A stretch of DNA of 64,000 bases from Dactylorhiza incarnata (lineage: Eukaryota > Streptophyta > Magnoliopsida > Asparagales > Orchidaceae). The position numbers were made by a program, and so were the translations under genes. Below are positions 1,977 through 64,000 of the stretch, piece after piece. Position 1 is the stretch's first letter; the number at the start of each line of letters is the position of its first letter. The notes under the pieces were generated by a model. The model did no database searches. It was not told the origin of the DNA and saw only the letters and a program-made list of their open reading frames with translations. The stretch spans positions 10,124,001-10,188,000 of the forward strand of contig JAWHQI010000009.1 of NCBI GenBank assembly GCA_033032865.1, in the 5' to 3' direction.

Positions 1977-2141
1977 TTGGGCAAAAACTCCAGAAATCCT
2001 GAAAAACATAAAGCAAACTTAAGTTAGTGAACAATTATAAATAGAAATGATTATTTAGTTAAAATAGACATATTATTTATAAATTCAAATTATTATTAGC
2101 CTAAAAACTATAATAAAATTAGGCAAAAATACTACTAATCA

Positions 2142-2160
2142 AATACCCCCATACTTAAGC
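2142..2160 (-). other. Polypurine tract
   Basis: The minus strand reads through AAGTATGGGGGTATT directly against the LTR edge at 2141, the position expected for plus-strand DNA priming. The Athila-like element has the equivalent at 32597. Confidence 0.7.
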
Positions 2161-3524: not shown

Positions 3525-3541
3525 TCCGGCAATGGTGCCAA
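3525..3541 (-). other. Primer-binding site, tRNA-Asp type (degenerate)
   Basis: The minus strand reads TGGCACCATTGCCGGAG, three mismatches from the tRNA-Asp complement. It sits 5-6 nt from LTR copy 2. Confidence 0.75.
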
Positions 3542-3546
3542 AAACT

Positions 3547-5974: not shown

Positions 5975-7232
5975 TGTAGTCTTAATGACCTAGAGGGGGG
6001 GGGGGGGGGTGAATAGGTCTCTTTTGTTTTAAGCTTTAGCCTAACTATTTTCTGAGTAATGCTAGTAATAAATCAAGCACACAGAAAACACACAAACATT
6101 TATTGAGGTTCCTCAAGACAAGGTGTCTTGAGTAGTCCTCTTCCCCCCTCACCTTTCTAACAATGAGTTAGATAAGGCCAACTCCTCCAATCTCAGCTCC
6201 AAGAGCTTACAACACAGATCACCCAGGATCACTCAGGTTTTCACAAACCCTACCTTAGGCTCAACAGCCCTACCTCAGGCTCAACAACCCTACTAGCTCA
6301 GAACTATCAAGAAGTCCTACCTCAGATCTCCACTGTGATCCTACACTTAAGCTGAACTCTCAGCTCTACACTCAGGCCCAACAACCCTACTCCCTCAGGA
6401 AAAATGCCCTATAAACTCAGAACAATAGTGTTCCTAAAGATGTTATAAAAGAAGCTTACATCGGAAGATGAAATAAATAGATCTTTCAGCCATTGGTCTT
6501 CTGTTGCAGATTAACTACAGTAGCAGTCTTGTAATAGGGAGAAGTTCAGTGCTTCAATCCAGCCCCTTTATGATCCTTCTCTTCAGTAGATGAATGAGGA
6601 TCAAGTTACTCTTCTTGAATCACTCAGGTAGAGCAAACTTTCTCTTCTTGTAGCTTCAAGAAGCAGGAAGAGAAAATTCTTGACAGCCGTCAATGAAACA
6701 GTAGAGTTGTGTTCTTTTTGCAAAAGGCTTTCTTCTTAAAAGCCCTAAGTTTTTCTTTTATACTCCCCCAGTCCTCAACGGCTATCAGATGGCCTCTGAC
6801 AAAGTATGGAGGTGATTGGAACACCTTATCTTACTTTTCTGCAACTTGTTCCAAAAGCAAAACCCGCCAGCACATTTGAATCTATCTCAGTGGTTGGGCT
6901 GAGATAGCTTCCAGTCTCAGCGGCTACTTTAGTCCCGACTCAGCGGATCCGCTGAGACAGATAGTTGTCTCAGCGGTTTTCCTCTATCTGTAGCTCAGCT
7001 GGCCCAGACTCCTTCTCAGCAGCTCCTGGCCTTCTCTCAGTGGTTCAGCTGAGACTGGGAGCTCGTCTCAGCGGTTTTTAGCAGTAAGCCACGTAACTTA
7101 TTCCATACCTTGGAATAACCTAACCCTGCATAGTTATGAGGTAAAATAGGGTTTATCAAATACAACTTGTACTTAGCATTGAGTGTGATGCTTCTTCAAA
7201 TCAAGGGAACGTTGAGGGTAATATTCTCAACA
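5975..7232 (-). repeat. Copia 3' LTR (left copy)
   Basis: Aligns with 31052-32317 throughout. The inner end is attctcaaca, followed by the purine tract. The outer end begins tgtagtctta and lacks the first about 16 bp seen in the right LTR. It contains a G15 run at 5995-6009, a TATA box at 6755-6762 (minus) and a palindrome array at about 6883-7076. Confidence 0.85.
6883..7076. repeat. Copia U3 palindrome array, motif CCGCTGAGAC/GTCTCAGCGG
   Basis: Multiple inverted copies of GTCTCAGCGG and CCGCTGAGAC, including the near-perfect palindrome around ctcagcggatccgctgag. In minus orientation it lies about 120-320 bp upstream of the TATA box at 6755-6762. The counterpart in the other LTR is 31966-32165, and a third array lies internally at 24971-25105. 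Confidence 0.8.
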
Positions 7233-8587: not shown

Positions 8588-9468
8588 TAGGAAATGCTGC
8601 TACCAAAGAAGGCCCCTGATTCCCCTCCCTGGAAAAGCCAGGAATCCCGCCATTTTCGCCCTTTCCACTGGAGGAGACAAGAGGAGACCATTTCCAGCGA
8701 TCTCCTTAGCCATTCCTCCATCCAGGTGCATTTGCAAGGATTCTCCGCCACTAGTTCAAGCATTCTTCGCCGAGGAGACCATAGAAGCGCTGAAGATCGT
8801 TGGAGCGGTGACAACCTCCTTTGAGTCCACACACCATCTGAGGGCCGTGCCCGGAGAGAGCCCGACAACCTCTCACTCCGGCCGAGAACCCAAGACGCGG
8901 TGACATCTTCTATGTGGTCCTTTCTAAACTTTGATGCTTGTGCTTTCTCTTTGTGTTGTTGTACGAACGCTTGTTAGGTTAATGTTATGGATCATTGCTT
9001 GTGTTCATGTGCAATGATGATGTGGTGGTGAGAATAGCTTTCGTTGTTGTTGTGATAGCCTAGGTTGTTTGTGTGTGAAGCCATCTAGCAATTGCTAGTG
9101 GTGATGTTGGCGAAGAGGTGAATACGACCCTCACAAAACCTCGCACTGTGGCCACTCCATCCGCTTACCGAAGCGCGGCATCGTGACCGCTGCACTCACC
9201 CACACCTTGCGAAGCGGTGCTTTTCGACCCGCATTTCTCTTATTTCTGCAATAGCTTAGGAATCCAATCACAACCCTCTTTATTATTACTTAGTAATCTT
9301 TTTAACTAATTTCTGGGTAGAGCGAATCATACTACCCAACTTGCGGTCCTTTGAGATCGACATTCGGGGAGTTCCTCCCTAATTTGTTACTTGAGCGACC
9401 GATGCACTACCATCGTATCACATTTCATGCTTGCTAATTAGCGGTGCTGAAATCGCGCATCAAGTTTT

Positions 9469-9486
9469 TGGCGTCGTTGCCGGGGA
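9469..9486 (+). other. Primer-binding site, tRNA-Asp
   Basis: TGGCGTCGTTGCCGGGGA, one mismatch from the complement of the plant tRNA-Asp 3' end, 6 nt after the 5' LTR. Confidence 0.9.
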
Positions 9487-9565
9487 CTGCAAGCGTGTAT
9501 GATTTGTTTTTCTTTGGAAATTTGTTTTAAGGTCTTTTTTTTATTTTCTTCTTTTGTGTTGAAGA

Positions 9566-10612
9566 GTGTGTATGCATAGAAGAGATCCCGATGAGTGTGC
9601 AGCATTTGACCCTGAAATAGAGCATACCCTGCGGGCGTGTCTCCGTGCTGCTGCCACCATGGATGTTAATGGAAATCAGGTTGATCCCGGAGTGGGAAAT
9701 GCACCGGTCGTGGGTCAGGTAGCTGACGAGAATGAAGTGGCTAGGCCACGACCCAGGACCATGAGAGATTACACTACACCCACTATTGGGAGTGTGTACC
9801 CTGGATTTGGCCCGGCTATCACCAACAACATCTTTGAGATAAAGCCGGCCATCCTGAACATGATCCGCAACCAGGCCCAAATCTCTGGGTTAGCCAGTGA
9901 AGACCCCCATCTTCACTTGGTTGAATTCACAAAAATTTGCAGGACATTTCGGTATGCAGGGATGGATGACGAGACGGTGAAGCTCAGGATGTTCCCTTTC
10001 TCTCTACGTGACAAGGCAAAGGCGTGGCTCCACACGATACCACCTAGCACAGCTACCACTTGGGACGCTCTGCAAGAAAAATTTATGGCGAAGTTCCATC
10101 CTGTCGACAAGGTTGTAAACTTGCGGAGGGAAATTGCAACCTTCCAACAACACGATCAGGAGGCTCTCTCAGAAGCTTGGGAGAGGTTCATGAACCTTCT
10201 CCGGAAATGTCCCCAGCATGAGCTGCAACCATGGACTATAGTAGAAAATTTTTACTTTGCTATTGAGCCTAACTACAGGGACATGATTGATGCTGCTGCA
10301 GGTGGAACTCTGATGAACCACACCCTGGAAGACGCATTATGGATCGTCCAAGACACTGCCATTCATAGCTCCTTTTGGACTGCTGGAAGAAACGCTCCAA
10401 GGAATGCTCGAGGACTCTTTGAGGTGAACATGTCTGGTGCACCCGCTGAAAGTACCATGCTACTAAAGAGGCCTACCCTCCCTTCTGCCCCAGTGATGAT
10501 GATCTCATGTCAAGGTTGTGGAAGCCCGGGGCATCATGCATATGAGTGCCCCACAGGTGAGCAACCTACCGAAGTTTCTTTTGATGAAAGCGTCAATTAT
10601 ATTAATGATTAA
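9566..10612 (+). pseudogene. gag: Gag polyprotein, N-terminal and capsid part (outer copy)
   Basis: Encodes the structural protein that packages element RNA. The 348-residue reading contains a PFDPEIE-like N-terminus, a retrotransposon gag core (about residues 100-250, with FPFSLRDKAKAWL and KFHPVDK) and one CCHC zinc knuckle, CQGCGSPGHHAYEC. It ends at a TAA where the inner copy has a glutamine codon (CAA). The gag reading resumes in the same frame after 10613, so this is a premature stop. The closest relative in the window is the inner copy at 18318-19592. Confidence 0.88.
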
Positions 10613-14844: not shown

Positions 14845-15230
14845 CACGATCATTGGCGCACGACCAGTGGTCGTGCGCACTGGAATTCTGCGATCGTGCG
14901 CACTGCCTGGACAGAACCTGCAAGAGACGAAATTATAAAATACAATGTTCGCACGACCAGTGGCGCACGACCAGTGGCGCACGACCAGTGGCGCACGACC
15001 GGTGGTCGTGCGCACTGGAGTTGATGGTCGTGCGCACTACAGCAAACAGAACTCAGAAATTTAATGGTCAATGCGCACGAGCAGTGGCGCACGACCGATG
15101 GTCGTGCGCACTGGAGTCGATGGTCGTGCGCACTGCACCAGACAGAACTCGTGAAAAAGGGTTAAGTGCGCACGATTAGTGGCGCACGACCGGTGGTCGT
15201 GCGCACTAGAACAAGTGATCGTGCGCAGTG
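14845..15230. repeat. U3 palindrome array, motif GTGCGCACGACC/GGTCGTGCGCAC
   Basis: Several inverted pairs of GCGCACGACC and GGTCGTGCGC around short centres such as agt, ggt or gat. The copy in the 5' LTR is at 20604-20985. The two arrays differ in unit number: a deletion of two units near 20712 and an extra aacaagtgatcgtgcgcact unit near 20940 in the right copy. Confidence 0.85.
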
Positions 15231-19705: not shown

Positions 19706-21240
19706 TGTTGCGATGATTCGACAAGTGCACCGGTCGCTGTCAAGTAATAATTGTGGAGAATAAATTCCCCGGATGTCGGTCTCTTGAGGAATGCAGGATG
19801 GGTGAACGAATCGCGCAGTGATTATTGTTACACAAGCGTTTCACAAACACAAAGAGGGGTTTTTGGTTGGTTTTCCTAATTTTAACAACAACAACAGAGA
19901 TGCGGGTCGAGAACACCGCTTCGCAAAGTGAGGTGGATGCAACGGCTGCGATGCCGTGCTTCGTGAGGCGGATGAAGTGAACTCAAGTGCGAAAGGGTGA
20001 GGGTCGCAAACACCTCTCCACAACCGTCGTTAGCTCTTGCTAACACGGAGCAAACACCTTGCGTGCGTGTGCGAGTGAGTGAGTGAGAACGGAATGAATC
20101 ATGAGCAAACCATGGAGAAAAACAAAGAAATATTCATTTTCATCAAAGTAAATATCACAATATTCATCTAGTACATGGTTCAAAGAGTGCAATGAAGGGA
20201 AAGAAGAAAGAAATAACCGGTGGTGAAGATTAGCGGCCGTTCACGGCCGGAATGGTAGGTTGTCGGGCTACCTCCGGACTCGGACGGACAATGCTTCCGG
20301 CGTAGAGAGCTGTCACAATCTCCCTACGTGCTCCGTCGTCTTCGACTCAAGGTCTCTTCTTCTTCTCACCGGGCGGAAAGCGAAAATGGTTGCTTGGAGG
20401 CTTGCGGACGATGGAGAACACTCACGGACGATGGAGGAAGGCTTGGAATGGATGGAGGAGGCTTCCCCTTGCGTGGAAGATGAAGTAGGGGCGTTCCAGG
20501 GCGGTGGTCGGCGGCGTACAGAACAGGAACCTCGCTCCCGGAATGATTGATCCGCCCTAAAATCGCAACAGGCGTTTAAATAGGCGCTGGATTGAATACT
20601 GCGCACGATCATTGGCGCATGACCAGTGGTCGTGCGCACTGGAATTCTGCGATCGTGCGCACTGCCTGGACAGAACCTGCAAGAGACGAAATTATAAAAT
20701 ACAATGTTCGCACGACCAGTGGCGCACGACCGGTGGTCGTGCGCACTGGAGTTGATGGTCGTGCGCACTACAGCAAACAGAACTCAGAAATTTAATGGTC
20801 AATGCGCACGAGCAGTGGCGCACGACCGATGGTCGTGCGCACTGGAGTCGATGGTCGTGCGCACTGCACCAGACAGAACTCGTGAAAAAGGGTTAAGTGC
20901 GCACGATTAGTGGCGCACGACCGGTGGTCGTGCGCACTAGAACAAGTGATCGTGCGCACTAGAACAAGTGATCGTGCGCAGTGTTCCTGTGCAGAATTGC
21001 ACCGGAAACACTTGCACGCCTCCTATTCCAGCACAAACACAGATCTAGCCACTGAAAGTGGCACTTAACAACATATGAATACTACTAAAGATAATACACA
21101 CGAAAACACACCAAAGTGGGCCTAAATGTGCACCTAGCATGGGTTATCAAATATAGACTATAATAAGGCTAAAGTGCGGTGAATTTACTGAATAATGGCC
21201 CAGATGAGTCCATAAATGTGTATATGATCAGGACTCATCA
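19706..21240 (-). repeat. 5' LTR of the inner element
   Basis: 1535 bp, ends TGTTGCGATG and GACTCATCA; 99% or better identity to 13947-15487 by eye outside repeat-number changes. TATA-like box at 20574-20583 and palindrome array at 20604-20985. Confidence 0.95.
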
Positions 21241-24970: not shown

Positions 24971-25105
24971 CCGTCTCAGCAGAACTGCTGAGACGGCGAC
25001 CTAAACCGCTGGGACAGAGCACTGTCAACCGCTGGGACAATTTGGCTGTCTCAGCGGTTCAGCTGAGATTTTTCCCAGCTGTCTCAGTGGCTCAACTGAA
25101 ACAAA
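24971..25105. repeat. Internal copy of the copia LTR palindrome motif
   Basis: Contains cgtctcagcagaactgctgagacgg, aaaccgctgggacag, tgtctcagcggttcagctgagat and related half-sites: the same GTCTCAGCGG/CCGCTGAGAC family found in both LTRs, but located between RNase H and the accessory ORF. The surrounding sequence is not evidently LTR-derived. Confidence 0.75.
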
Positions 25106-31035: not shown

Positions 31036-32317
31036 TGATAGTTTATTAGGATATAGTCTTAATCACCTAGAGGGGGGGGGGGGAGGGGGTGAATAGGTCT
31101 CTTTTATTTTAAGCTTTAGCCTAACTATTTTCTGAGTTAATGTTAGTAATAAATCAAGCACACAGAAAACACACAAGAATTTATAGAGGTTCCTCAAGAT
31201 AGGGTGTCTTGAATAGTCCTCATTCCCCCTTCACCTTTTTAACAATGAGTTAGACAAGGCTAACTCCTCCAATCTCAGCTCCAAGAGCTTACAACACAGA
31301 TCCCTCAGGATCTCTCAAGTTTTCCCAAACCCTACCTCAGGCTCAACAACCCTACCTCAGGCTCAACAACACTACCAGCTCAGACCTATCAAGAAGTCTT
31401 ACCTCAGATCTCCACTGAGATCCTACACTCAAGCTGAACTCTCAACTCTACAGTCAGGCCCAACAACCCAACTCCCTCAGGCAAAATGCCCTACAAACTC
31501 AGAACAATAGTGTTCCTACAGATGTAATAAAAGAAGCATACAACAGAAGATGAAATAAATAGATCTTTCAGCCTTTGGTCTTCTGTTGCAGATTAATTGC
31601 AGTAGCAGTCTTGTAATAGGGAGTAGTTCGGTGCTTCAATCCATCCCCTTTCTAATCCTTTTCTTCAGTATATGAATGAGGATCAACTTGCTCTTCTTGA
31701 ATCACTCAGGTAGAGCAAACTTTCTCTTCTTGTAGCTTCATGAAGCAGGAAGAGAAATATTCTTGACAGCCGTCAATGAAATAGTAGAGTTGTGTTCTTT
31801 TTGCAAAAGGCTTTCTTCTTAAAAGCCCTAATTTGTTCTTTTATACTCCTCCAGTCTTCAACGACTATCATATGGCCTTTGATAAAGTATGGAGGTGATT
31901 GGAACACATTATCTTGCTTTTCTGCAACTTGCGCCAAAAGCAAAACCCAGACCGGCACATTTGAATCTGTCTCAGCGGTTGGGCTGAGACAACTTCCAGT
32001 CTTAGTGACTACTTCAGTCTCGGCTTAGCGGATCCACTGAGACAGACAGTTGTCTCAGCGATTTTCCTCTATCTACAGCTCAGCTGGCCCAGACTCCTTC
32101 TCAGCGGCTCCTGGCCTTGTCTCAGCAGTTCAACTGAGACTGAGAGCTCGTCTTAGCAGTTTTTAGCAGTAAGCCACTTAACTTATTCCAAACATTGGAA
32201 TAACCTAACCCTACATAGTTATGAGGTAAAATAGGGTTTATCAAATACAACTTGTACATAGCATTGAGTGTGACATTTTTTCAAATCAAGGGAACATTGA
32301 GGGTAATATTCCCAACA
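31036..32317 (-). repeat. Copia 5' LTR (right copy)
   Basis: 1282 bp from tgatagttta to attcccaaca. TATA box TATAAAAG at 31838-31845 (minus), palindrome array at about 31966-32165, and a G12 run at 31072-31083. Divergence from the left LTR is moderate, with many scattered substitutions, so this insertion is clearly older than the inner gag-protease copy. Confidence 0.88.
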
Positions 32318-39861: not shown

Positions 39862-41553
39862 TGATATAGAGAATTTCGGATTTATGTTAAGCGAAGGGTT
39901 AAAGATGTTTTCCAAACTATATTCGATGGAGGCAAGTGTACCTTATCATCTATAGTATATGATATTTTAGAAATACCAAGTTTGTATTCCTCGGGGTGCG
40001 TTGATTGCTTCTACTTCGAGGGGCGCGTTGATTATTTCTACTTTGAGATAATCACTATTATCTTATCGATTAATTTTTGAGGTTTTGTTTACTTAGCTAA
40101 TAAGAGACAATTTGCAAGCTAAAAGAAAGGTTTGATGGTAAAAAGATTAGTGCTCAATCTAAAATCACCTTGGAGTGAGAATAATCAAGTGAAGGAAAAA
40201 TAAATCTAATTCCGTTTAAATAATCAAGTGCTCAATCCAAGATGGGATGATCGCGGAGGTTCCCGAAGCTTGAACATGTCTCTCTCGAGGTTAATGCCCA
40301 ACTAAGTTTAGGAAAAATCAACCAAACTCTCGTCCTATAATTGATTACCTACAACTTGCTTTACGCTTGAGTGATCGATTCATACTTTGAGCCTCTCGGC
40401 TAGCTAAGTATGAAAACTTAAGCGAAAACCATATATCAAAAATATGGTCTCACTAATTAAAAATCAAGGGTAATTCAAGTGTTTACAAAAAACGGAAAAA
40501 GATAGCTAGAAAATCATAACTTGATTATCTCATCCTCGAATCATTTCGATTGAGCACTAATGAGTATTAGTTAATCATAGCGGAGGGGGAAAAGAGAATA
40601 AGATGACATTGCATGAAGAAAAGCTAATTAAAAGAGAAAGAGAAGTGAAGAAAACAAAACTAATTTTTATTGAAATTAAAAACTATTACAAGCCTTAAAC
40701 AAGATTACAATGCTAGAAATGCAAAGATTACAAGCTTAAAAAACTATTGCATTAAAAGAAAACTAGAACATTGTATGAAAGGGAAAGAGAGAGAACATGA
40801 AATGGAAATACATGAACAAAAGCATGTAAAAGATCACTAACAGCTCTAGCAGCACCTCCTCCTCTCCAAAATTCTGAACCCTGGACTCAAGGAGAACCTC
40901 TGAATTTATAGATTTTTTTAAGTTACACGCCCTCGGTCACGGGCGTGACCAAGGGCATGCAACCACTGTTCAGCTCTGATCCGACAGTGGCGTGGGTCTT
41001 GCGTGATAGCGTGGTGGAAAAGGAGTTTACACGCCAGTGTAACATTAGTCACGGGCGTGTACTTGGGTGGCTTCATTTAATGCATTGTGGGTTTGATTGC
41101 GGCGCGGAGGCGAGCAAGGATCACGCTGGAAAGTTACGGCCGTGACATTTGGGTCATGGGCGTGACTTGGGTTGACTTCTCGATGGCATCTCACCTTCTT
41201 GACGGCAGCTCCGCTGGCAGGATCCTAAGTTTACACGCACCAGATCATGGGCGTGACCTTTGGGTCAGGGCGTGAATGGGGGCGTAACTTGTTGTGGACA
41301 AGCTCAAACTTTGCGACATCAATACTGTACTGGTATTCAAGTTATACGCCCCTGGTCACGGGCGGGACTGGGGGGCGCGTAATACAAATTTTCCCAATTT
41401 TGTCCCAAAATTCTGCAAAAATAAACATAAGTAAATTACAATAAAATTTTATAAAAGAACTATTTATAACCTACAATTGGCATGAAAAAGAAAAATTCAT
41501 ATTAAATAATTACTAAAATTTCTACTAAAAAGTTATACAAAAATTACTTATCG
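39862..41553 (-). repeat. 5' LTR of the Athila-like element
   Basis: 1692 bp from TGATATAGAG to about TTACTTATCG (the last base is probably a mutated A). TATA box TCTATAAATT on the minus strand at 40903-40912 and a palindrome array upstream at about 40925-41380 (tcacgggcgtgacc type). Confidence 0.85.
40925..41380. repeat. U3 palindrome array of the Athila-like LTR
   Basis: Inverted pairs such as cgccctcggtcacgggcgtgaccaagggc and many gggcgtgac half-sites. The motif class is the same as in the LTRs at 480-5213, supporting their family link. Confidence 0.7.
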
Positions 41554-41583: not shown

Positions 41584-41591
41584 TATAAATA
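41584..41591 (+). promoter_or_regulatory. TATA box preceding the accessory pseudogene
   Basis: TATAAATA, about 80 nt before the ATG at 41663. DNA further upstream is cut off by the Athila LTR boundary at 41553, so a palindrome array cannot be looked for here. Confidence 0.5.
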
Positions 41592-41662: not shown

Positions 41663-43336
41663 ATGGTGTCCGCACGAGCTGTCGTTGCTGAGACCTTTGT
41701 AAATGTCGATCACTAGCTGTGTAGGCTTTCCCAAGATGAATATGTGTCCTTTTTGGAGAAGCACATGATTCAAAACTAGTTTATTGTGTGGCTGCCATAA
41801 GAGAATGAAGGCTTGAACTTTGGTGTTGAAAATAAACTCATCATCAGAATCGATAACTTTGATTGTGGACTAATGCTTGCTTTTCCCTGGGAATTTTTTG
41901 TAGTGATGGAGTACAATGGAGTTGTGTTCGGACAGCTTCCATCAAACTCAACCAGTCTCATGTCAGTCTTCATAAGCTACTTGAGATCTGCGAAGATCAA
42001 GTTCACAATCGATCTATTCCGCACCATCTTCATGATGAAAGCGCTGAAAGAATGGAGAAAGAAAGAGTATTTTAAAGGGCTGATGTATTTTTCTTGCAAA
42101 GGCATCAAGGTTCTAAATCTCCCAAACAAGATCCCTTCCTTGATAGAAAGGTTCATGGTATTTGAGGGCGACTTCGGCGGTCTCAACACTTTGCTGTCTC
42201 GCCGGGGAGAAGGGGTTTTTAGAAAACCCAAAACGATCACAGAAGATGAGCTTGACATCTTGGCCTTCCTGGACGACAAGCGCCTCGATCGCCTTCACTA
42301 CATGGTGATTTGGCCTGAGGTCACTATCATTTTCCTTTGCTCATTTTCTAATAGTTTTATTTCCATTTAGTGACCTTGGTGATCCCAACTAGCGATCACG
42401 TGGCGCCGGCTAAGGAAGTCCTCACTCAAAGGGAGATGAGGTAGAAGTGAGACCGTGACAGGATGGCGAATGAGACTACTCAAGAATAAGAGTCCGCCAC
42501 CGAGTCCTTTCCTTTGATAGGATTCTGCGGGAAAATGAAAGATACCAAGGGCAAGCCCCTTCTAAAATGGGATAAGAAAGGAAAATTTTGGAAGGTGTCT
42601 ACTGCCCCTCCTGTTTGGGGCGGGAAGCTGACGCACCATGCCAACGCGGTCACTTCCGTGCTGTTTGGCGAATTCAATGCCAAAGAAGCTTATTCCATTG
42701 ATGCTGAAATGCTTCCTGATATGGCCATGCAAGCGTCGGTCAGAAGTGTGGTCTTGAACCACCATCTAGGGCGGTCTCCCAGCATGGCCCTGAAAGATAT
42801 CGATACCTTACAAGATAGGTTAAGGGTAAGTACATTTTACCTATAGTCTTCAATTCCTTTCCATTTAGACCGTGTGATCTAATATACTTCCTTTTACAGA
42901 GATCAATTAAAAGGCCTATCATTTTGATAATTCTGCCTTCCAGAAAGTGATGATGAAGCACTTGAGAGGCGCACCCAACATGACAATTTTGAGGCTTCGC
43001 GAACATGGTTGTCTCTCTTTTGAATTTGAAGGAGTAGCATTCGCCGATCTGTTTCCAAAAATGGCGCAAATGATTGACGATGCGTTGGTCACTATTTCTG
43101 AGTCTAGTGAAGAAGGTGAAGAGGAAGAGACTGCCACATGTGCAAATAGGGAGAGCGAGCACACTCCTTTGAGCGGAAGCCAATATATTCCTGGTGATGA
43201 GTTGAGCTCGGTGGCGGCCTCAAGTTCTGGATCAAGAGTTATTCATAGAAGCTCAGCAAATTCTTTAGAGGAGACCGCTTCTTCGTCATCAGAAGAGCGA
43301 TCTCCGAAAAGATCGAAGAGCAACCCAGAGGAATGA
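41663..43336 (+). pseudogene. Accessory gene remnant, PF04195-like (putative gypsy-type transposon protein)
   Basis: Reads from ATG 41663 with three in-frame stops before 41813 (probably C-to-T changes), then a long stretch with LMLAFPWEFFVVMEYNGVVF, LMSVFISYL, IDLFRTIFMM and YFKGLMYFSC. This layout resembles the PF04195 domain known from accessory ORFs of Tat-lineage elements. A second block (42514-42825) and a third (42944-43336, acidic, Ser-rich, ending in a basic SPKRSKSNPEE) are joined by a GTAAGT-AG intron at 42826-42943 that keeps phase. A further short intron near 42320-42370 is possible, but the phases do not agree. Not a host gene by context. Confidence 0.65.
42826..42943 (+). other. 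Predicted 118-bp intron in the accessory pseudogene
   Basis: Donor GTAAGT directly after the DRLR codons, acceptor CCTTCCAG before KVMMKHLRG. Both sides lie on codon boundaries (phase 0), although the flanking blocks are in different genomic frames. Confidence 0.6.
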
Positions 43337-44044: not shown

Positions 44045-44575
44045 TGATAGATTTATCCCAGAGATAAAATGGCGGCCTTAACTTCCCCAGACCGCTCCTT
44101 AATCAAAAGAACAGAAGAAAAACCCCGGGAACGGTCTCAACTATTCTAGGCTACTCCTTAATAGAAAAAAAGATAAGAAAACATTAGACGGTGGTCTCAA
44201 ATTCCCAAACCGTCAATTATAAGAATAGATAATAGATAAATCCTTAGGTGATGGCCTCAAATTCCCCAGACCATTTCTTATCAGAGAAGTTTACAGAGAA
44301 AACCCAGGCGGTGGTCTTTAATGATCCAGACCGCCCTTAGTTGTATAGATAATAAAGAAACATAGGCGCCAGTCATAAATGCTCCAGACCGCCCCTTATC
44401 AGAATAGATAATAATGAATCCCAGACAGCGGTCCTAAGTGCTCCATACCGCCCCTTAATTGAAATAGATAGAAAGAAAACCTGGCGGCGGTCTTAAGTAC
44501 TCCAGACCGCCCCTTATAGAGAAATCCCAAACTAGCAGTTTTAAATATTTTAGACCGTGCCCTTATTAGAAAGGT
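44045..44575. repeat. 60-bp minisatellite with a palindromic core (ggcggtct..agaccgcc)
   Basis: About nine imperfect units of about 60 bp. Each has a core of the type ggcggtcttaagtgctccag followed by accgcccctta and an aatagataataaagaaa spacer. Unit length and core position stay constant while the sequence drifts. Confidence 0.75.
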
Positions 44576-55142: not shown

Positions 55143-55435
55143 TGTAAGGCCCCAGTTCTCAGGTGCAACAAGTTCACAGCGATCTAAGATGAGGAGCTAG
55201 CACTAGGGCTAGCGCCGACGGTAGCTTATATCGTCGAATTGGGTGAGTTTCGACGAAAGGACTTGTGTGTATCATCAAAAGCATCAAGACAAATCCTCGA
55301 GTGCTAGCGCCGGTAGTTGCGCTAGCTCTCTCGACGACTTTGTGTCCCAATGAATGTATCCCGATGAATCATCTTGAGTGCTCATGAATTCGGCTCGTCA
55401 AGAGCTAGCGCAGGCTGTAGCGCTAGCGATAGCGT
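55143..55435 (+). repeat. 5' LTR of a plus-strand element, first piece
   Basis: Begins TGTAAGGCCCCAG exactly where chromovirus RT coding stops. It contains inverted gctagcgc/gcgctagc words (about 55195-55435). It ends at the agcgt duplication (55431-55435) of the Tat-like insertion and resumes at 63343. The expected target duplication of this element itself is cggtg (55138-55142), to be found beyond the window. Confidence 0.7.
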
Positions 55436-55555
55436 TGTACAACCCTCATATTTTCCTAGCCGACGTGGCCAAGCGTGGATAGAGGGCGCAGCGGACCGAA
55501 CCATCGGAGGTCGTCAAGACCAGAAAGAGAAGGCTGGGGGGGGGGGTAGACCTCC

Positions 55556-55925
55556 TTGGATGAGTGGACCTTGGGTCCAATCGCCCAAGGCCCCGGGCGA
55601 GTGGACCCTTGTACCACTCGCTCAAGGACCCGGGCGAGTGGACCATTGGTCCACTCGCTCGAGTGGGGGGGGGGGGGGGGGCGACAAGTGGACCCTGGGT
55701 CCACTTGCCCAAGGGTAAGGGCGAGTGGACCTATGGTCCACTTGCCCCGCACAGCTGGGCAAGTGGACCGAAGGTCCACTCGCCCGGTGGGTTGAGTGGA
55801 CTGTAAGGTCCACTCGCCCAGTAAAGGTGGTGGACCTCGGTCCACTCGCCCAGTAAGGGCGGTGGACCTCAGTCCACTCGTTCGACCCTCGGAAAGGGGG
55901 GGAGTGGACGTCTCGTCCTTCACTC
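55556..55925. repeat. U3 palindrome array, motif GGGCGAGTGGACC/GGTCCACTCGCCC
   Basis: About nine units, each a gagtggacc..ggtccactcgccc palindrome with a 3-6 bp centre and short spacer, including a G17 run at 55665-55681. The copy in the 3' LTR is at about 62535-62885. An internal third array is at 60826-60955. Proline/arginine-rich ORFs through this stretch are by-products. Confidence 0.88.
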
Positions 55926-56011
55926 GCCCCCTCTTGTTTTGACCGTCTAGGTTCGTGGTTGAGCTGTGGATAGCAGAATTTTGGCTATCAACAGCCCAAT
56001 TTTGGGAAGTC

Positions 56012-56019
56012 TATAAATA
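56012..56019 (+). promoter_or_regulatory. LTR TATA box of the Tat-like element
   Basis: TATAAATA about 85 bp after the palindrome array; identical at 62973-62980 in the 3' LTR. Confidence 0.65.
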
Positions 56020-56377
56020 GACCCCCATGGGCACCTTGGGAAGGGTTGGTCTCTACCCCCTCTCCCTCGCGTGAGTATTGTGAGCAAGCACTACCCCCGC
56101 TTTTGTCAGTGAAGGTGGACGGTGAGGTGATCCTTAGTGCCCTCCAAGGTGCCTAGGATCAGCATTGGCTTGGGATGGGAATTTCCTTGTGAGCTTTCGG
56201 GTGTGTGGTGGGACCTCCACGCTGCAGCTTAAGGGGTCCGTTTGCGGACTTAGGTGTTCTTCAAGGGCATGGTTCTTCGGTTCATAGTGACTGGTCAAGG
56301 GTTCTAGCTCGGGTCAAGTAAGGGTTAGCTGCATCTTCCTTTCGAACGTCGAGACGAGTTTTCTGGTTTCAACATTC

Positions 56378-56390
56378 TGGTGCGATGAGC
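56378..56390 (+). other. Primer-binding site, tRNA unassigned
   Basis: TGGTGCGATGAGC begins 3 nt after the 5' LTR, the right position and starting TGG. I could not match it confidently to a tRNA from memory. It fixes the element orientation as plus. Confidence 0.55.
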
Positions 56391-56482
56391 GTGAAAGGAG
56401 CTAGTTCGGACAGCTCTGAGCAAGTCCCATGGATGGAAGCAAATAGCCAAGGAACTCACCTCCTCCAGACAGGTCGCGGTCA

Positions 56483-57090
56483 TTGACGGGGGAAGAGGAA
56501 GCAGAGAAGACAAATCAAGCACGTCGGGAAGGGAAGGAACTGACCTCAGAGGAAGGTTTGAGCCTCCAAGCGCGAGTGCTCTTCAACAACTCGCCCAGGA
56601 CCAGCTACCCAGGTGATGGGGTTGGGAGAGTGCCCCCATCTCACCAGGTAGGGTGGGGAAGTCCCTTTTGCGAGCTGATTATCTCAGCTCCCATTCCAGA
56701 CGGGTTCAGCGAGCCTGCCATGTCCTACTACGTAGGGAAGGACGACCCTCTCCAACATCTCCAGTGGTTCAATGACATGACCTCGATTAGGTAGATGTCG
56801 GACGCCTCCAAGTGCAGGCTCTTCGCCATCACTTTCAAGGGAGAGGCAAAAGACTGGTTCCACCAGCTCCCATCAGGTACCATCTACAACTTCAAGGATC
56901 TGTGGTGGAGCTTCTTGCTGAGATTCTCCACCTCGAAGAAGAGGTGGGAGGGAGCGGAGGCCCTATTCTTTATTCGACAGAAGCATGGGGAGACGCTGGG
57001 AAGCTATGCGGATTGATTTCAGGAACAAGTCCTCCACCTCCAGGTTGACAAGGGAAGCAGGAGGGACCGGGAGAAAGAGAAGGAATAAGA
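56483..57090 (+). pseudogene. gag: Gag fragment of the Tat-like element
   Basis: Reading with FCELIISAPIPDGFSEPAM, GKDDPLQHLQWFNDM, an in-frame TAG at 56792-56794, then SDASKCRLFAITFKGEAKDW and LWWSFLLRFS, and a second stop near 57015 followed by FQEQVLHLQV. This is the retrotransposon gag core (PF03732 type) in the form seen in Tat elements. Nothing resembling a zinc knuckle or protease follows. Confidence 0.8.
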
Positions 57091-57232
57091 AGACAAAGAA
57101 GACGGAGGAAGTAATGAAGGTGATGGTCATGGTGCATGTGACCAAGTAGGCCCAGAGAGGCGCATTGTAATGATCATGTAACTCCTCGATGATGAATGAA
57201 AAATGTTTCAGGTAACGCCTATGGTAACTAGA
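57091..57232 (+). other. Short spacer between gag fragment and tandem array
   Basis: Lys/Glu-rich out-of-frame tail then non-coding DNA. No independent feature seen. Confidence 0.4.
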
Positions 57233-58569
57233 TTGGGAAGGTGTTGAGTTCCTCTGCCTCCAGGTGAAAGTAAGCACCTTGGACGTGGATGGGTACTCCG
57301 CCCCCAGTTGGTAAGATCCCCAACTAGAGACCATTCTCCGGGCTCAGTCATGCCAGCAGATGGGAGACTGATCAGGTCGACTCGCTGCTTGACTAAGTGG
57401 CTTGGGAAGGTGTTGAGTTCCTCTACCTCCAGGTGAAGGTAAGCACCTAGGACGTGGATGGGTACTCCGCTCCTAGTTGGTAAGATCCCCGACTAGAGAC
57501 CATTCTCCGGGCTCAGTCATGCCGGCAGACGGGAGACTCATCGGGTCGACTCACTACTTGACTAAGTGGCTTGGGAAGGTGTTGAGTTCCTCTACCTCCA
57601 GGTGAAGGTAAGCACCTAGGACGTGGATGGGTACTCCGCCCCTAGTTGGTAAGATCCCCGACTAGAGACCATTCTCCGGGCTCAGTCATGCCAGCAGATG
57701 GGAGACTCATCAGGTCGACTCGCTGCTTGACTAAGTGGCTTAGGAAGGTGTTGAGTTCCTTTACCTCCAGGTGAAGGTAAGCACCTAGGACGTGGATGGG
57801 TACTCTGCCCCCAGTTGGTAAGATCCCCGACTAGAGACCATTGTCTGGGCTCAATCATGCCGGCAGATGGGAGACTCATCGGGTCGACTCGCTACTTGGC
57901 TAAGTGGCTTGGGAAGGTGTTGAGTTCCTCTACCTCCATGTGAAGGTAAACACCTAGGACGTGGATGGGTACTCTGCCCCCAGTTGGTAAGATCCCCGAC
58001 TAGAGACCATTCTTCGGGCTCAGTCATGCTGGCAGATGGGAGACTCATCGGGTCGACTCACTACTTGACTAAGTGGCTTGGGAAGGTGCTGAGTTCCTCT
58101 GCCTCCAGGTGAAGGTAAGCACCTAGGACGTGGATGGGTACTCCGCCCCCAGTTGGTATTTGGTAAGATTCCACACTAGTGACCATTCTCCGGGCTCAGT
58201 CATGCCGGCAGATGGGAGACTCATCGGGTCGACTCGCTACTTGACTAAGTGACTTGGAAAGATGATGAGCTCCTCCGCCTCCAGGTAAGATAGGCCCCTA
58301 GCACGTGGATGGGTATTCCACCCCCAGTTGGTTTGAAAAAGTGTTGAGTTCCTCTGCCTCCGGGTAAGCTAGGCCCCTAGGACGTGGACGGGTACTCCGC
58401 CCCCAATTGATTTGGGAAGGTGCTGGGTTCCTCCGCCTCCAGGCAAGCTAAGACCCTAGTACGTGGACGGGTACTCCGCCCCTAATTAGTTTGGAAAGGT
58501 GTTGAATTCCTCTGCCTCTAGGTAAGCTAAGCCCCTAGGACGTGGACTGATTCTCCTCTTCTGGTTGGT
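57233..58569. repeat. Satellite-like array: six 169-bp units then four 79-bp units
   Basis: Unit starts (ttgggaaggtg) fall at 57233, 57402, 57571, 57740, 57909 and 58078, all 169 bp apart. The sixth unit is 176 bp owing to a 7-bp tandem duplication (ggtattt). After 58254 units of 79 bp follow (58254, 58333, 58412, 58491), which keep the first part of the 169-bp unit and lack the ccccgactagagacc..cgactaagt part. Units are highly similar, indicating recent amplification. ORFs within the array repeat the same peptide. Confidence 0.92.
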
Positions 58570-58813
58570 CTGACAAGTTGATCTAAGGTATGACAAGATA
58601 GTAAACTCTCTCCATCGCAGGAGGAGATCTCAAACCAAACAATTGTTCTACTTAAACAGCGAAGAGTTGAAGAAGCTAGAAGGTTCACTGAATGGTTGCA
58701 TGTCCAGGGATAACATAAATTACATAGGCAAGCGCTTTGCCCTTAATAGTTAGCACACAGATGAAAATACAAAGTAGTCGTTGCTTAAGAAAAATAAAAA
58801 AGAGAGAAGGTTC

Positions 58814-60692
58814 CTAGCAACTCTGGCATTCAGGGGAATAGCCGCCGCTGGAAGCGGACGAGCTGGGACATGCGGGGGTGGGGTAGAGCTCGAAAAGGAT
58901 AGCGCTAGCAGAGACCCCCCTCCAATCATCCCGAAGGGTGTCCTCCCTATGAAGGGAGACCACCAAGGCCTCGACCGTATTAATCACAATCTTCCTCCTG
59001 GAGCTCTCAGCCCTAGCAGGAGAAGGTGGGACGGGCGCCTCCATCCGCTAAGATCCACCTCTCTCCCCCTCCCGCAACTGCCTATGGGCTTCAGCAAGCT
59101 GAGCCATTAGGTCATGCACCTCTCGATCTGACTCCTTGCATCATCTCCTAAGCGAGTCAGTAGCCTCTGGTCCCTGCAGATGAAAAAGGTAAAGAGGTTA
59201 CAGCCGCTGAAGAAAGGAGAGGTGAAGAAGAAGGGAAGGCTCACCAAAGCAAGCACGAACCAGGCCGTCGGATGACTGCTCCAGGAGCCTCTCAGCGGTG
59301 ACTAGGCATGTGGTAAGGTCAGCAACCCTCTCTTCGGCAACCTGACTTGACGCATCAGCTTTCCTCAGCTTCTTTGAGAGACTAAGACCTCGGCGGGCAG
59401 TCATATGCGTGAGTTCGGCTGCGCGAAGCAGGGCTTGCGAGCTCATGCAGGCAAGGTCACGAATGGACTTTTTCTTGTAGGCGGCCGCATCCTTCCGTCC
59501 ATAGAGGCCAAAGGAGAGGTTATATGCGGCATCCCCGAGAGGTTCACTCTCTATCCAGGAGGGTTGCTGGGAGGTGATCGAGACCCAGTTCGTTACCTCA
59601 TCCTAGTGAAGGATATGGTCACCAAAGGAGTCGGTGGCGTTTCCCCCCATCTCGAAGTTGGGATGGTTGGCCAACGCATCAGGATCACTCGGTTCCCCCT
59701 TGTCCCTCGGCGCTACCCCTGAGTCCTCCCTGCAGACAGCCTTCCCCGCCGCATTGTTGGTCCTCTTGGCGGGGTAGAAGGCGTAGCCTCCTCCACCACC
59801 TGCTCCTTCTCTCTCGGTTGCCTCAGCATGGGGACCTTCGGGACGGAGGTGCGTGCAGCGGCAGCCTCCTTAACGAACCAGCGGGCGGATGAAGAGCTCC
59901 CCCTTGCGAAGGGAGGGTGCCGCAGAAAAGCGCGCTCACTTGTGCGAATCAAGGTACGGGTAAGTGTCCATAGGTGCGAGTGAAAAGAAAAAAAAGGAGA
60001 GTAAGAGACATCAGAAGGGGGAGGATACCTATCCCAGGCTCAACGTAGGTAAGCCGGTCGATGTTCCTCTGGAGGTGCTCAACCTCGAAGCTCGTACCCT
60101 CAAGGTAGCTATGAAATGCGGCTGCTTCCCCACCTAAGCGAGGGGCCTTGCAGGCCTTCTCAGACCTCTGGATGGGTGAGAGGGGGGTGTCACCAAGGTC
60201 ACCTTAGATGAACACAAAGGTGTTGCTCCAGTGATGGACCTTGTTGGAGGTCTCACACACCTTCACGTGCGTGCCGGTTAGGAAACATACCCCATCAGTG
60301 GTCGCTAGGAAGATGAACACTTTGCAAAACATGGTTAGGTCAAACTCAACCCGTTCCTCTTGCAGGTAGCAGGCATAGGCCGTTAAAATCGAGATCGCAT
60401 TCGAGTTGACCTGAGCAGGGACTATGCCGAAGTAGTTCAGGAACTCTTTCACCTCAGGCCATAAGGGAAGCCGTAGGCCAGCTTCGAAGTGGGCAAGCGG
60501 GAAGGCAAGCCAGTCCTCCTAGAAAGAGTTAATGGCCTCTCCTAGCAATGGACGTCGAGACGTCCACCCCTCGGGAAGGTGGGAGCTTTTGAATGCCTAG
60601 AACTCCTCTTTAGATACATTCCCTTAAGGGACAAAATTAGCCGCGCTTTGCTCCCGACCATTTCTAGCGACAGGAGGGTGGTTGGGAGCCAT
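58814..60692 (-). pseudogene. Antisense accessory ORF of the Tat-like element, PF04195-like with coiled coil
   Basis: Starts MAPNHPPVARNGRE at 60692. In shifted frames it gives LAFPLAHFEAGLRLPLWPEV then VKEFLNYFGIVPAQVNSNAI and FDLTMFCKVFIFLATT (60204-60480), the layout of the PF04195 domain. The stop at 60204 is followed in frame by more coding-like sequence to about 60030; further pieces are 59713-59938 (basic, Pro-rich), 59198-59446 (coiled-coil-like, SKKLRKADASSQVAEERVADL) and 58814-59044. At least three frame breaks or introns intervene. The product would be made from antisense transcription. Function unknown. Confidence 0.65.
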
Positions 60693-60799
60693 CTCGCAGG
60701 GTAAGGAAGAAAGAAGAGAGCCGACCTCAAGGAGAATGCAAAACAAGGGAAGGGGGCAGATGTGATGGTGAAGTGGAAGAAGAGAGGGGGGGGGGGGGG

Positions 60800-60807
60800 T
60801 ATTTATA
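60800..60807 (-). promoter_or_regulatory. TATA box of the antisense accessory ORF
   Basis: The minus strand reads TATAAATA, 108 nt upstream of the ATG at 60692, with the LTR-type palindrome array directly upstream. Confidence 0.65.
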
Positions 60808-60825
60808 GGGGGGATCAAAAGTGAT

Positions 60826-60955
60826 TGAGTGGACCATGAGGTCCACTCGCCCGGTGCATGGGAGTGGTCCTCGTGGACCATTCGCCCGGCAGAGGTGTGC
60901 GAACCCTATTGTCCGCTCGCTTGGTTCAGGGGTGAGGACCTCGAGGTCCATTTGC
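60826..60955. repeat. Internal copy of the Tat-like LTR palindrome motif
   Basis: Contains gagtggaccatgaggtccactcgccc, gtggtcctcgtggaccattcgccc and gaggacctcgaggtccatttgccc: the same GAGTGGACC/GGTCCACTCGCCC family as both LTRs, about 20 bp upstream (minus sense) of the accessory TATA box. Confidence 0.85.
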
Positions 60956-61932
60956 CCATGCTTCCCCCTAACCCCACTCCTCTACCTCATCTAGAGGACA
61001 ACCATCTAAGGCCTTTGCCCCTCGTCCTCTGATATACTACCCCGGCATCATGTCGCTTACCCTGGCATTTAATTATCAAACACATGACGACCTGCGAAGC
61101 ACGAATGTACGAAAGCAACGAAGCATTATAGCAGAAGCAGAGCAAGGTAAAAGCATCCGGTCGCAAGGTGGACTGAACCACCATGCAAGCCTAATCCCTG
61201 TTATTACATAGCAAGTAGAAAATCACAAATAAAAGCTGATCAGCGCGACATCCACTTCCAGAAACCTTGATCCTAGGTGCACGATGCCACCCCATGCATA
61301 GAACCGATACATTCCTTCGCTGCAGCAACCTCCTCGCTCATGGTGCGAACGGTAGCCTCCACCAGGCGTATGTGGTCTGCGAGTGGCGCAGTTATGCCTC
61401 CAAACACAAGCCAGACCCCCCCTTAGCAGATTGAGCTCATTTTCTAACCACTCCATCCGCCGCTCCAGCGCGTAGACGCGAGCGAGAGGGTCAGGTTCGG
61501 TAGACCATCTTCCCTCTCGCAGCTCGTGAAGAAAGGCCTCCTACATCCGCACCATATCACCCAGATGTTCCAGACGCTCGATGACGTTGGGTTGGTCCTC
61601 AGCAGGTTCCTCAACCATAGTTGGGGAGAAGAGTGGTGGGGAGACCTCCCGCCAGCTCGACTGACCCGTCGAGGTCTAGTTCCCTCCTGCAAAAGTATAC
61701 CTTTAGATGCCGAAGCACTCAACCCAATAGAGGCTCTCGCAGCAGCGTTACCTTGCAAATCCTCAATCCCTTAGCTTTTCGAGAAAGGGTTGTCGTGGGC
61801 AGTTGAGAGGGCAGCAGGATCCTAAACAAGAATGGCAGGGCTTGCTCGAACGCCCGCGCCCGACGTTTCCATCACACTCCGGGTCCCCTCGGGGTGGTTC
61901 GAAATAAGCTGTTAGCATTCAAGAAGCATGTC
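60956..61932. other. Internal 3' part of the Tat-like element, little coding evidence
   Basis: Antisense readings such as 61444-61758 exist but have no recognisable family. No repeats of note. It probably contains leader or untranslated sequence of the antisense genes. Confidence 0.35.
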
Positions 61933-62214
61933 TCAGTTAGCGCGGTACAACCGCGAAAAGGAAATCAAAGATGAGGAATGAGGCGATACCGCGCCTAGCT
62001 CTAGATCCCGGACAATGTCGGTCACCCCGTGGGAGGATGACGACGCCACCTCTTTCACCAGGTCGGGTCGGAGTTTCTTCCATGGTGATCGCACCGCCGA
62101 CTGAGTAAGGGAGGGCAGAAGACCGCTAACCATGGCCCCGAGCTCTGCCAGGTCATTCTGGTCCCTCCCAGCAAGGGCTTTGAAACGTGCTCTAAAGTCC
62201 CGAGGAGGGTCCAT
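61933..62214 (-). CDS. Small antisense ORF, hypothetical (93 residues)
   Basis: ATG at 62214, starting MDPPRDFRARFKALAGRDQN and ending at TAA 61933; hydrophilic, no membrane segment, no family recognised. A TATA-like box (TATAAAAA, minus, 62285-62292) lies about 70 nt upstream. It is the only uninterrupted antisense reading with a plausible promoter nearby, but short length makes chance possible. Confidence 0.3.
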   Translation of the reverse strand: MDPPRDFRARFKALAGRDQNDLAELGAMVSGLLPSLTQSAVRSPWKKLRPDLVKEVASSSSHGVTDIVRDLELGAVSPHSSSLISFSRLYRAN

Positions 62215-62284
62215 CCGACTTGAAGGAAGGGGGGAAGGGAGAGCCCTCAGGGAGGGTGCTCTCCTCACCTCCCCCTTTGGAGGG

Positions 62285-62292
62285 TTTTTATA
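62285..62292 (-). promoter_or_regulatory. Possible second antisense TATA box
   Basis: The minus strand reads TATAAAAA upstream of the small antisense ORF. The palindromes of the 3' LTR (62535-62885) are the nearest array upstream in minus sense. Confidence 0.35.
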
Positions 62293-62404
62293 GCTGCCCT
62301 GCGGGGCCCTCAGTAGATTCCCCAAAGACCCCACTTGACTCGTCAAATAGGTGGGTTGGACTTTCTTTCCGAGCTTAAAATAAGCTCGAAAAGAGCAAGA
62401 ATTG

Positions 62405-63342
62405 TGTACAACCCTCATATTTGCCGAGCCGACGTGGCCTAGCGCAGATAGGGGGCGCACCAGACCGAACCGTCGGAGGTTGTCAAGACAAGAAATAGAA
62501 GGCCCGGGGTGGGGGGGGGGGGGGTAGACCTCGTTGGACGATTGGACCTTGGGTCCACTCGCCCAAGGCCCCAGGCGAGTGGACCCTTAGTCCACTCTCC
62601 CAAGGACCCAGGCGAGTGGACCATTGGTCCACTCGCCCGAGTGGGGGTGGGGGGGGGGGGGGGGGGGGGGGCGAGTGGACCATGGGTCCACTCGCCCAAG
62701 GGGAAGGGTGAGTGGACCTATGGTCCACTCTCCCCGTGGAGCTGGGCGAGTGGACCGAGGGACCACTCGCCCGGTGGGTTGAGTGGGCCGTAAGGTCCAC
62801 TCTCCCAGTAAGGGCGGTGGACCTCGGTCCACTCGTTCGACCCCCAGCAAAGGGGGGGGGGGGAGTGGACATCTCATCCTTCACTCGCCCCCTCTTGTTT
62901 TGACCGTCCAGGTTCGTGGTTAAGCTGTGGATAGCAATGTTTTGGCTATCCGCAACCCAATTTTGGGAAGTCTATAAATAGACCCCCAATGGGAACCTTG
63001 GGAAGGGTTGGTCTCTACCCCCTCTACCTCGCGTGAGTCTTGTGAGCAAGCACTACCCCCTCCTGCCCTTTTGTCAGTGAAGGTGGACGATGAGGTGATC
63101 CTTAGTGCCCTAAAAGGTGCCCAGGTTCAGCATTGGCTTGGGAGGGGAAGTTCCTTGTGAGCTTCCGGGTGTGTGGTGGGACCTCCACGCTGCAGCTTAA
63201 GGGGTCCATTTGTGAACTTAGGTGTTCTTCAAGGGCAAGGTTATTCGGTTCTTAGTGACTGGTCAAGGGTTCTAGCTCGGTTCAAGTAAGGGTTAGCTGC
63301 ATCTCCCTTTCGAACGTCGAGACTAGTTTTCTGGTTTCAACA
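62405..63342 (+). repeat. 3' LTR of the Tat-like element
   Basis: 938 bp, TGTACAACCCTC to GGTTTCAACA, followed by the agcgt duplication. It includes the palindrome array with G runs of 14 (62511-62524), 23 (62649-62671) and 12 (62862-62873), and a TATA box at 62973-62980. Confidence 0.92.
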
Positions 63343-64000
63343 AGCGTCTCGATAACTTCCTTATGTGGTTATGGATAAGTTCAGCTGTACCGCCTCTAGA
63401 CTAGCGCCAGGTGCTAGCGCAAGCCCCGACGATAGTTGTTTTATATATATAACCCTCAAAATCGAGGATTCTCCTCAAGTTCTTACTTAGACTCTCTCCA
63501 AGGCAAAGGCAGAGGTCAGGAAGAGGAAGGAGGTTTGTTTTGGCTAGAGCAAGTCCGAGTAGGAGATCTCTTGTGCGCTTGTGCCATCGTTGGATCTGTG
63601 GAGAGGAAATTTAACCCTATGGCACCAAAAAAAGCACCAAGGGTAACGATTCTCCTCCTTAATCTATGGACATGCTAGTCATTGGATTTGCATAGTAGCA
63701 GGAAGATTTCCACTAATTAGTGGATAGGTTTCTTCCGACGGGTCGATATGGATTATCCCCGTAGAAAATTCCATATAGAGTCTGGATCGCTGTACGTACA
63801 TTGGCATACTGTGTGAAGCCCATCTGGACATGTTGGTATGGATTGGTGATGTTGATATGCTATACTGCACTCCGGAGACGACTCCTAGTATGTATGATTT
63901 TTTTCGGGTTCTGGGTGCTGTTATGTGCTGCAGGGAGTTCTGGAGGTGATCTTCAGAAAACACCCGAAAGAGTTCACAGAACTGAGTTCTGTAGCTAGCA
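63343..64000 (+). repeat. 5' LTR of the plus-strand element, second piece, runs off window
   Basis: Continues 55143-55435 after the agcgt duplication. More gctagcgc-type inverted words (63396-63422), then a TATA box (TATATATATAA near 63442-63452) and the transcribed part of the LTR. 63680-63960 resembles 51245-51560 inverted, so this element and the chromovirus have related LTRs. The LTR end and internal region lie beyond 64000. Confidence 0.6.
63442..63452 (+). promoter_or_regulatory. LTR TATA box of the plus-strand element
   Basis: TATATATATAA downstream of the LTR's own palindrome array, in plus orientation. Confidence 0.55.

Follow-up and report, generated by a model that had tools for sequence, protein, structure and literature searches.

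The stretch of Dactylorhiza incarnata DNA analysed here, in the following called the window, is 64,000 nucleotides long and carries at 55436-63342 an LTR retrotransposon that we read as an old, non-autonomous and dead copy of the Tat/Retand type. The two LTRs (55436-56374 and 62405-63342) are 85% identical to each other, a 5-bp duplication, AGCGT, is found on both flanks, and the reading frames are broken. The parts of the element are as follows.

55436-56374, plus strand: 5' LTR, starting with TGTACAACC and ending with GGTTTCAACA; target site duplication AGCGT at 55431-55435
55562-55885: U3 palindrome array of the 5' LTR, GGCGAGTGGACC/GGTCCACTCGCC; sense TATAAATA at 56012-56019
56687-57013, plus strand: gag remnant with a stop inside; Retrotrans_gag PF03732, E 1.2e-8 on 56795-57013
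57225-58570, plus strand: tandem repeats, a 169-bp unit followed by units of about 80 bp
59110-60692, minus strand: antisense accessory gene aORF2, with a broken frame here and an approximate 3' end; 60207-60518 encode its TRP28/Transposase_28 domain
60800-60807, minus strand: TATAAATA, the TATA box of aORF2, which precedes the ATG (60692-60690) by about 108 bp; 15 of 20 copies picked by protein similarity have it at this position
60826-60955: palindrome array of the aORF2 promoter, motif as in U3; bigger in most aligned related copies
61226-62214, minus strand: second antisense gene aORF1 (MDPPRDFRARFKAL...), in several pieces, extent approximate; ATG 62214-62212
62285-62292, minus strand: TATAAAAA belonging to aORF1, with the 3' LTR about 110 bp away
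62405-63342, plus strand: 3' LTR; target site duplication AGCGT at 63343-63347; sense TATAAATA at 62973-62980
62540-62890: array of palindromes in U3 of the 3' LTR

Classification of the element

A second RNase H is a mark of the Tat clade. In a relative from another family (family B, see below) the domains RT_RNaseH, RVT_3, Integrase_H2C2 and rve were found on the strand opposite to the TRP28 gene and 3' of it, and the design described here is thus also present in pol-bearing elements. No pol domain was detected in the 17 internal pieces of the window element that were scanned (7 + 10, which do not include every open stretch). The TRP28 domain of aORF2 (60207-60518, minus strand) matches PF04195 with an E value of 3.4e-7 and 30.8 bits against a cut-off of 26.2. 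The gene lies antisense between the gag remnant and the 3' LTR, and the internal tandem repeats occupy 57225-58570. This resembles Retand/Tat elements of the Ty3 superfamily as described in the extracts of Vicient 2025 (PMC11963269) used here, with an antisense TRP28 gene between gag-pol and the 3' LTR, tandem repeats and non-autonomous members. In the same extracts antisense TRP28 ORFs are typical of Retand and occur in 97% of the published clusters, internal tandem repeats are found in about half of the elements, and DNA binding of TRP28 is predicted by hybridDBRpred. The statement of an initial annotation of this DNA that antisense accessory ORFs are known in Tat elements is borne out by that work. 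The same annotation called the element Tat-like, in keeping with the TRP28 gene and the tandem repeats. It has to be corrected in that this copy is non-autonomous and looks dead, with no pol domain in the pieces scanned, broken frames and LTRs that are 85% identical.

For aORF1 no Pfam family was found in the two pieces scanned, and tblastn identified relatives at 61-79% identity in five other loci (L013, L019, L024, L025 and L027). As about 110 bp separate TATAAAAA of aORF1 from the 3' LTR, the U3 array is also upstream of this gene. Within the 169-bp tandem units (57225-58286) we noted GGTCGACTC(G/A)C at six sites, with one or two mismatches to the U3 motif; the tandem units of L027 likewise hold three GGTCGACTC(G/A)C sites.

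The U3 motif at the aORF2 promoter

An antisense ORF at 60692 preceded by a TATA box (60800-60807) and by palindromes (60826-60955) had been annotated, and the ATG, TATAAATA and GAGTGGACCATGAGGTCCACTC were all located there. The array includes one palindrome with perfect arms, GAGTGGACCATGAGGTCCACTC at 60827-60848, and degenerate palindromes at 60862-60883 and 60935-60950, between which there is only one weak half-site (8.9 bits, at 60910). The further claim that the array carries the motif of the LTRs was confirmed by two counts. Exact GTGGACC/GGTCCAC occurs 29 times in the 64 kb (16 forward and 13 reverse), every time in either LTR or in 60780-60980. When a half-site matrix was built from the LTRs only, six sites of at least 8 bits were found in 60780-60980, as compared to a mean of 0.097 in dinucleotide shuffles, and none of 1000 shuffles reached six. 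The same matrix gave seven other internal sites, six in the tandem repeats and one at 59541, and lone sites scattered elsewhere in the window score up to 13.4 bits. Genome-wide (3.27 Gb) the motif pattern has 1732 + 1709 occurrences and the reversed control none. The array of the window is shrunken; in the related locus L018 there are about eight units, degenerate ones included, with a spacing of about 35-37 bp.

The number of generic palindromes in the 141-bp array stretch is not extreme, being equalled by 85 of 1918 random stretches, so the exceptional feature is the motif and not palindromy itself. Generic palindrome counting does not discriminate and was dropped. A count of arm compensation in loosely defined units (77 of 185 complementary, 60.8 expected, reached by 18 of 10000 shuffles) was also left unused, because its threshold is too loose.

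The window also holds a copia element with a different motif, GTCTCAGC, found at 14 sites:

6914-7065 and 31969-32119: copia LTR repeats with GTCTCAGC, nine of the 14 sites
24973-25048: three accessory-side GTCTCAGC sites, upstream of a minus-strand ORF starting at 24750

The remaining two sites are at 19163 and 41687. The motifs of the two elements had been said to differ completely, as GTCTCAGC and GTGGACC/GGTCCAC indeed do, and the copia element had been said to pair its LTR motif with a copy at an accessory gene, which agrees with this distribution. With GTCTCAGC in the LTR repeats and upstream of the accessory ORF the element fits the published Sirevirus design. Other repeats with palindromes of their own (GGTCACGCCCGTGACC; GCGCACGACCGGTGGTCGTGCGC) were seen at 1438-5030, 14856-15204, 20722-20935 and 40925-41380, the last with related GTCACG words recognised by eye.

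Copies of the same family

Twenty 10-kb loci were chosen from the genome matches of the motif, which makes this set a biased sample. Five of them contain close TRP28 genes (L018, L019, L024, L025 and L027), all with the palindrome upstream, and alignment to the window places the array directly upstream of the TATA box, except that L027 has no TATA box there. Four further loci (L013, L014, L021 and L028) are short relatives with an array or LTR spacing of about 4-5 kb and gag-like matches, in L028 over 22 residues only; they gave no TRP28 match at E 1e-4, and L013 retains aORF1.

An unbiased set of this family (family A) was therefore taken by protein similarity: 20 copies at roughly even steps through the best 150 of 34,715 candidates from the protein search, each with 901 bp of upstream DNA. 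The 150 scored matches are 80-100% identical to the query. The palindrome was found upstream in 17 of the 20 copies and at least three half-sites in 18; L044 and L046 have no half-site upstream, and L047 has three half-sites and no palindrome. In 15 of the 20, TATAAATA lies at -267 to -302. Exact half-sites are confined to one zone, as 106 of 107 start within -650 to -300 and the last one in the adjoining 50-bp bin, giving a density of 15 per kb at -650 to -300 vs. 0 at -1000 to -650.

The antisense TRP28 frame is constrained, because dN/dS is 0.11-0.32 in ten pairs of relatives; in the four pairs with L019 the value is inflated by unaligned terminal residues. In the protein database the relatives are five proteins in all, TRP28 proteins of the orchid Platanthera. 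A PDB sequence search with TRP28 returned one match that is not meaningful (E 0.77), and an AF2 model from six sequences was useless (pLDDT 37).

To view the LTR array in the same 20 copies we took 701 bp from 1.8-2.5 kb upstream. An array was seen in 14 of these segments, ten with GTGGACC, three with GTGGGAG (L060, L065 and L068) and one with GTGGGGG (L067). The six array-free segments (L050, L055, L058, L061, L064 and L066) were judged off-target or interrupted and were not counted as absences. L024, L025, L060, L065 and L068 make up a subfamily (C) in which U3 has GTGGGAG and the gene promoter GTGGACC, the common part being only GGCGAGTGG. The inner half of the motif can thus diverge between the two sites while GGCGAGTGG is still common, and exact sharing as a universal rule is ruled out. 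In L025 the LTR pieces (2605-3573 and 8888-9760) are 94-99% identical, and the array of the 3' LTR is a near-perfect tandem of a 30-bp palindrome, unlike the array at the gene promoter of the same locus.

Family B and a third TRP28 family of this genome

Family B was recognised from L026, which has a TRP28 gene 52% identical to that of the window element over 58 residues. Its LTR-like repeats contain AATACTCGCC-GGCGAGTATT palindromes, and identical words are found in its gene promoter. Ten copies were sampled from the best 150 of 38,985 candidates of the protein search, five of them at 76-80% identity. In all ten, the 700 bp before the ATG contain one or two copies of GCGAGTATT and the U3 segment contains at least one, the segment of L087 looking off target. 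The density of CGAGTAT per kb is 8.3 in U3, 8.4 in the promoter and 16.7 in the 5' UTR, as compared to 1.1 further upstream.

A more distant TRP28 homologue, representing a third family, lies in the window itself:

about 41664-42813, plus strand: third-family TRP28 homologue, 25.3 bits, just below the cut-off of 26.2

It has a TATA box of its own at 41584-41591, and a nested element has apparently cut away its upstream side. Beyond the gene, at about 44050-44560, there are repeats with GGCGGTCT...AGACCGCC (by eye). In its kin, for which the best 150 of 29,374 candidates from the protein search were scored, GCGGTCTC/GAGACCGC form palindromes such as CCAGACCGCGCGGTCTGG at a distance of about 2.7-3.3 kb upstream, and they recur upstream of the accessory TATA box. 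The distal array was taken as U3 since a sense TATA box comes next and homology between copies stops soon after, an assignment based on one LTR side. It was found in three of the four copies viewed at 5 kb, and in L092 it is beyond the segment or missing. In three copies the sites per kb are 13.9 in U3, 6.2 on the aORF1 side, 3.5 in the aORF1 body, 6.4 in the promoter, 8.5 in the 5' UTR and start, and 0 beyond the LTR. The motif of the third family is spread over the internal region examined, coding stretches included, and the promoter peak is weak. As its control stretch is about as rich as its promoter in the top-12 word sum given below, the claim for the promoter is weakened in this family, though not that for family-specificity.

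The palindrome arrays contain 22-30-bp inverted repeats whose arms are perfect and whose loops are short, as would be expected if the palindromes acted as RNA hairpins, for packaging or dimerisation or as a small-RNA source for silencing. We find this highly improbable, as many promoter copies in family B and the third family are single half-sites that form no hairpin, and the placement relative to the antisense TATA boxes points to DNA.

Comparison of the three families

The U3 motifs of the three TRP28 families in this one genome differ, that of B being GGCGAGTATT and that of the third GCGGTCTC. Words were ranked in U3 alone and then counted in the 260 bp upstream of the TATA box of each family. 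Five of the 20 family A copies were dropped for want of a recognised TATA box, as were two of the 14 third-family copies (10 + 4). From the top 12 U3 words of each family, we picked GGTCCAC, with 5.53 per promoter in A and 0 in B and the third, ATACTCG, with 1.6 in B and 0 in the other two, and AGACCGC, with 1.92 in the third family and 0 in A and B. Summed over the top 12, the promoters of A, B and third contain 39.0, 2.3 and 0 of the A words, 4.67, 10.1 and 0.08 of the B words, and 0.13, 0.1 and 4.33 of the third's words. The control stretches are not empty of their own top-12 words, with 1.9 in A (350 bp), 3.4 in B (260 bp) and 5.0 in the third (400 bp). Among TATA-bearing promoters, the own full motif was present in 15 of 15 for A, in 10 of 10 for B and in 11 of 12 for the third family, and the full motif of another family in none. 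A and B have GGCGAGT in common (4.67 and 2.2 per promoter, respectively), so these are not fully independent families, and since the copies within a family are kin, independence is counted by family (n = 3).

Family-specific sharing of a motif, as it had been proposed in the initial annotation, thus holds to the extent that each of the three families has its own motif and no foreign full motif, and fails as exact sharing in subfamily C. Our counts show that the putative module stays upstream of the predicted TATA box in families A and B. Taken together, a cis-module common to U3 and to the antisense accessory promoter very probably exists in these elements.

The number of array units differs widely among copies, and the near-perfect 30-bp tandem in the 3' LTR of L025 is a sign of homogenisation. 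Both would be explained if the palindromic units were a by-product, with recombination or strand transfer carrying them from LTR to internal region or back, slippage enlarging the arrays, and no common reader. Against this, the motif lies upstream of the TATA box in 15 of 15 TATA-bearing promoters of A and 10 of 10 of B, and the differing sites of subfamily C show that exchange is not continuous; we consider this explanation improbable.

Discussion

By their sequences, Tat/Retand elements as compared here carry a promoter module in which copies of a family-specific motif, often as palindromes, are clustered. The module is situated in U3, where it precedes the sense TATA box, and again at the TRP28 gene, where it lies upstream of the antisense TATA box. 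We propose that one family-specific DNA-binding factor would read both sites and so couple the output of the accessory gene to LTR activity. Since the motif differs across families and largely agrees between the two sites within one, one factor probably reads both, a step that we hold with reasonable although not high confidence. An extra antisense TATA box was seen just inside the 3' LTR, beside U3 motifs, in the window, in three family B copies inspected and in L090, so three promoters may use the module.

The likeliest single reader would be the element's own TRP28, acting as an autoregulated trans-activator or as an anti-silencing factor. It is the best candidate because its DNA binding has been predicted in print and its gene has the array; as the gene carries the array, TRP28 as the reader would form an autoregulatory loop. 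That the factor is encoded by the transposable element is quite possible, if somewhat short of what we would expect, and the explanation as a whole, with a shared module, one family-specific reader and TRP28 as its likeliest candidate, appears to us evenly poised.

A strong rival to TRP28 as reader is that host transcription factors, a different one for each family, drive both promoters while the accessory protein does other things. The motif of family A, GTGGACC(C), resembles a class II TCP site, GTGGNCCC, and the tie between a protein of the element and the motif is one that we infer. In favour of host factors, the Sirevirus boxes, in the parts of Bousios 2010 (PMC2829016) drawn on, match mainly stress-related host factor sites. 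On the other side, the core GGCGAGT of A and B and GCGGTCTC of the third family are not TCP-like when set against the TCP consensus, and the motif differs among three families in one nucleus, each of which has its own in U3 and at the accessory promoter alike. In addition, the product of the gene with the second array is predicted to bind DNA according to the extracts of Vicient 2025 (PMC11963269). On balance we regard control by host factors as a serious but rather doubtful alternative to a reader encoded by the element.

The closest known design is that of the Sireviruses. A 2016 paper reportedly describes palindromes in maize Sirevirus LTRs. In the available portion of Bousios 2010 (PMC2829016), element-specific palindromic boxes are upstream of the LTR TATA box and of the accessory gene, as here, where boxes are found upstream of the LTR TATA box and 5' of the accessory gene. 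In that work nine ENV-bearing elements have linker copies, 77 of 79 of them upstream of ENV, and four elements without ENV have none. Sireviruses belong to another superfamily (Ty1/copia), carry an ENV gene instead of an antisense TRP28 gene, and have a CGG-CCG core in 12 of 13 motifs (PMC2829016), unlike GGCGAGTGGACC here. With its PF03732 gag, its antisense TRP28 gene and GGCGAGTGGACC as motif, the Tat element of the window appears to work alike and is not a member of that group.

Maize Grande gene23 (Gomez-Orte 2013, as cited in PMC7264820 and PMC11963269) is likewise an accessory gene in antisense orientation; it has a promoter of its own, and its protein is nuclear. A shared array is not reported in the extracts of these two papers. 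In those of Vicient 2025 (PMC11963269) a motif common to U3 and the accessory promoter is not described, and palindromes appear only in a cited title. Nor did we find such a description for Retand or Tat in the open-licence literature, including the extracts of PMC11963269, PMC12477314, PMC7264820 and PMC11728184. Earlier work thus covers the Sirevirus design, the antisense TRP28 genes of Retand and the prediction that TRP28 binds DNA, whereas the shared motif in Retand is apparently undescribed. The annotators had known of no description of the shared array, which is correct for Retand as far as these sources go and not for Sireviruses, where it was published in 2010 (PMC2829016).

The parallel that had been drawn to the VANC proteins concerns a different class, as VANDALs are DNA transposons. 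In the three families here the family-specific arrays lie in non-coding regions, with three motifs of which those of A and B share GGCGAGT, and that of the third family also runs through coding stretches. VANDALs likewise have short family-specific motifs, non-coding arrays spread by tandem repeats and an accessory protein encoded by the element; VANC binding to such motifs was demonstrated by ChIP-seq and EMSA, according to the part of the article used (Nat Commun 2017, PMC5735166), as opposed to the present arrays, which are known from sequence alone. By analogy, TRP28 proteins might be family-specific, self-regulating trans-activators or anti-silencing factors whose sites change together with the protein, a counterpart of VANC with an origin separate from that in Sireviruses, although we put this forward tentatively and think it unlikely to hold in full.

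The arrays provide candidate target sites for three TRP28 proteins of a single genome, in which each family can serve as the swap control of the others. Taken with the example of the Sireviruses, they suggest that two superfamilies have independently linked an accessory gene to the LTR via one common motif.
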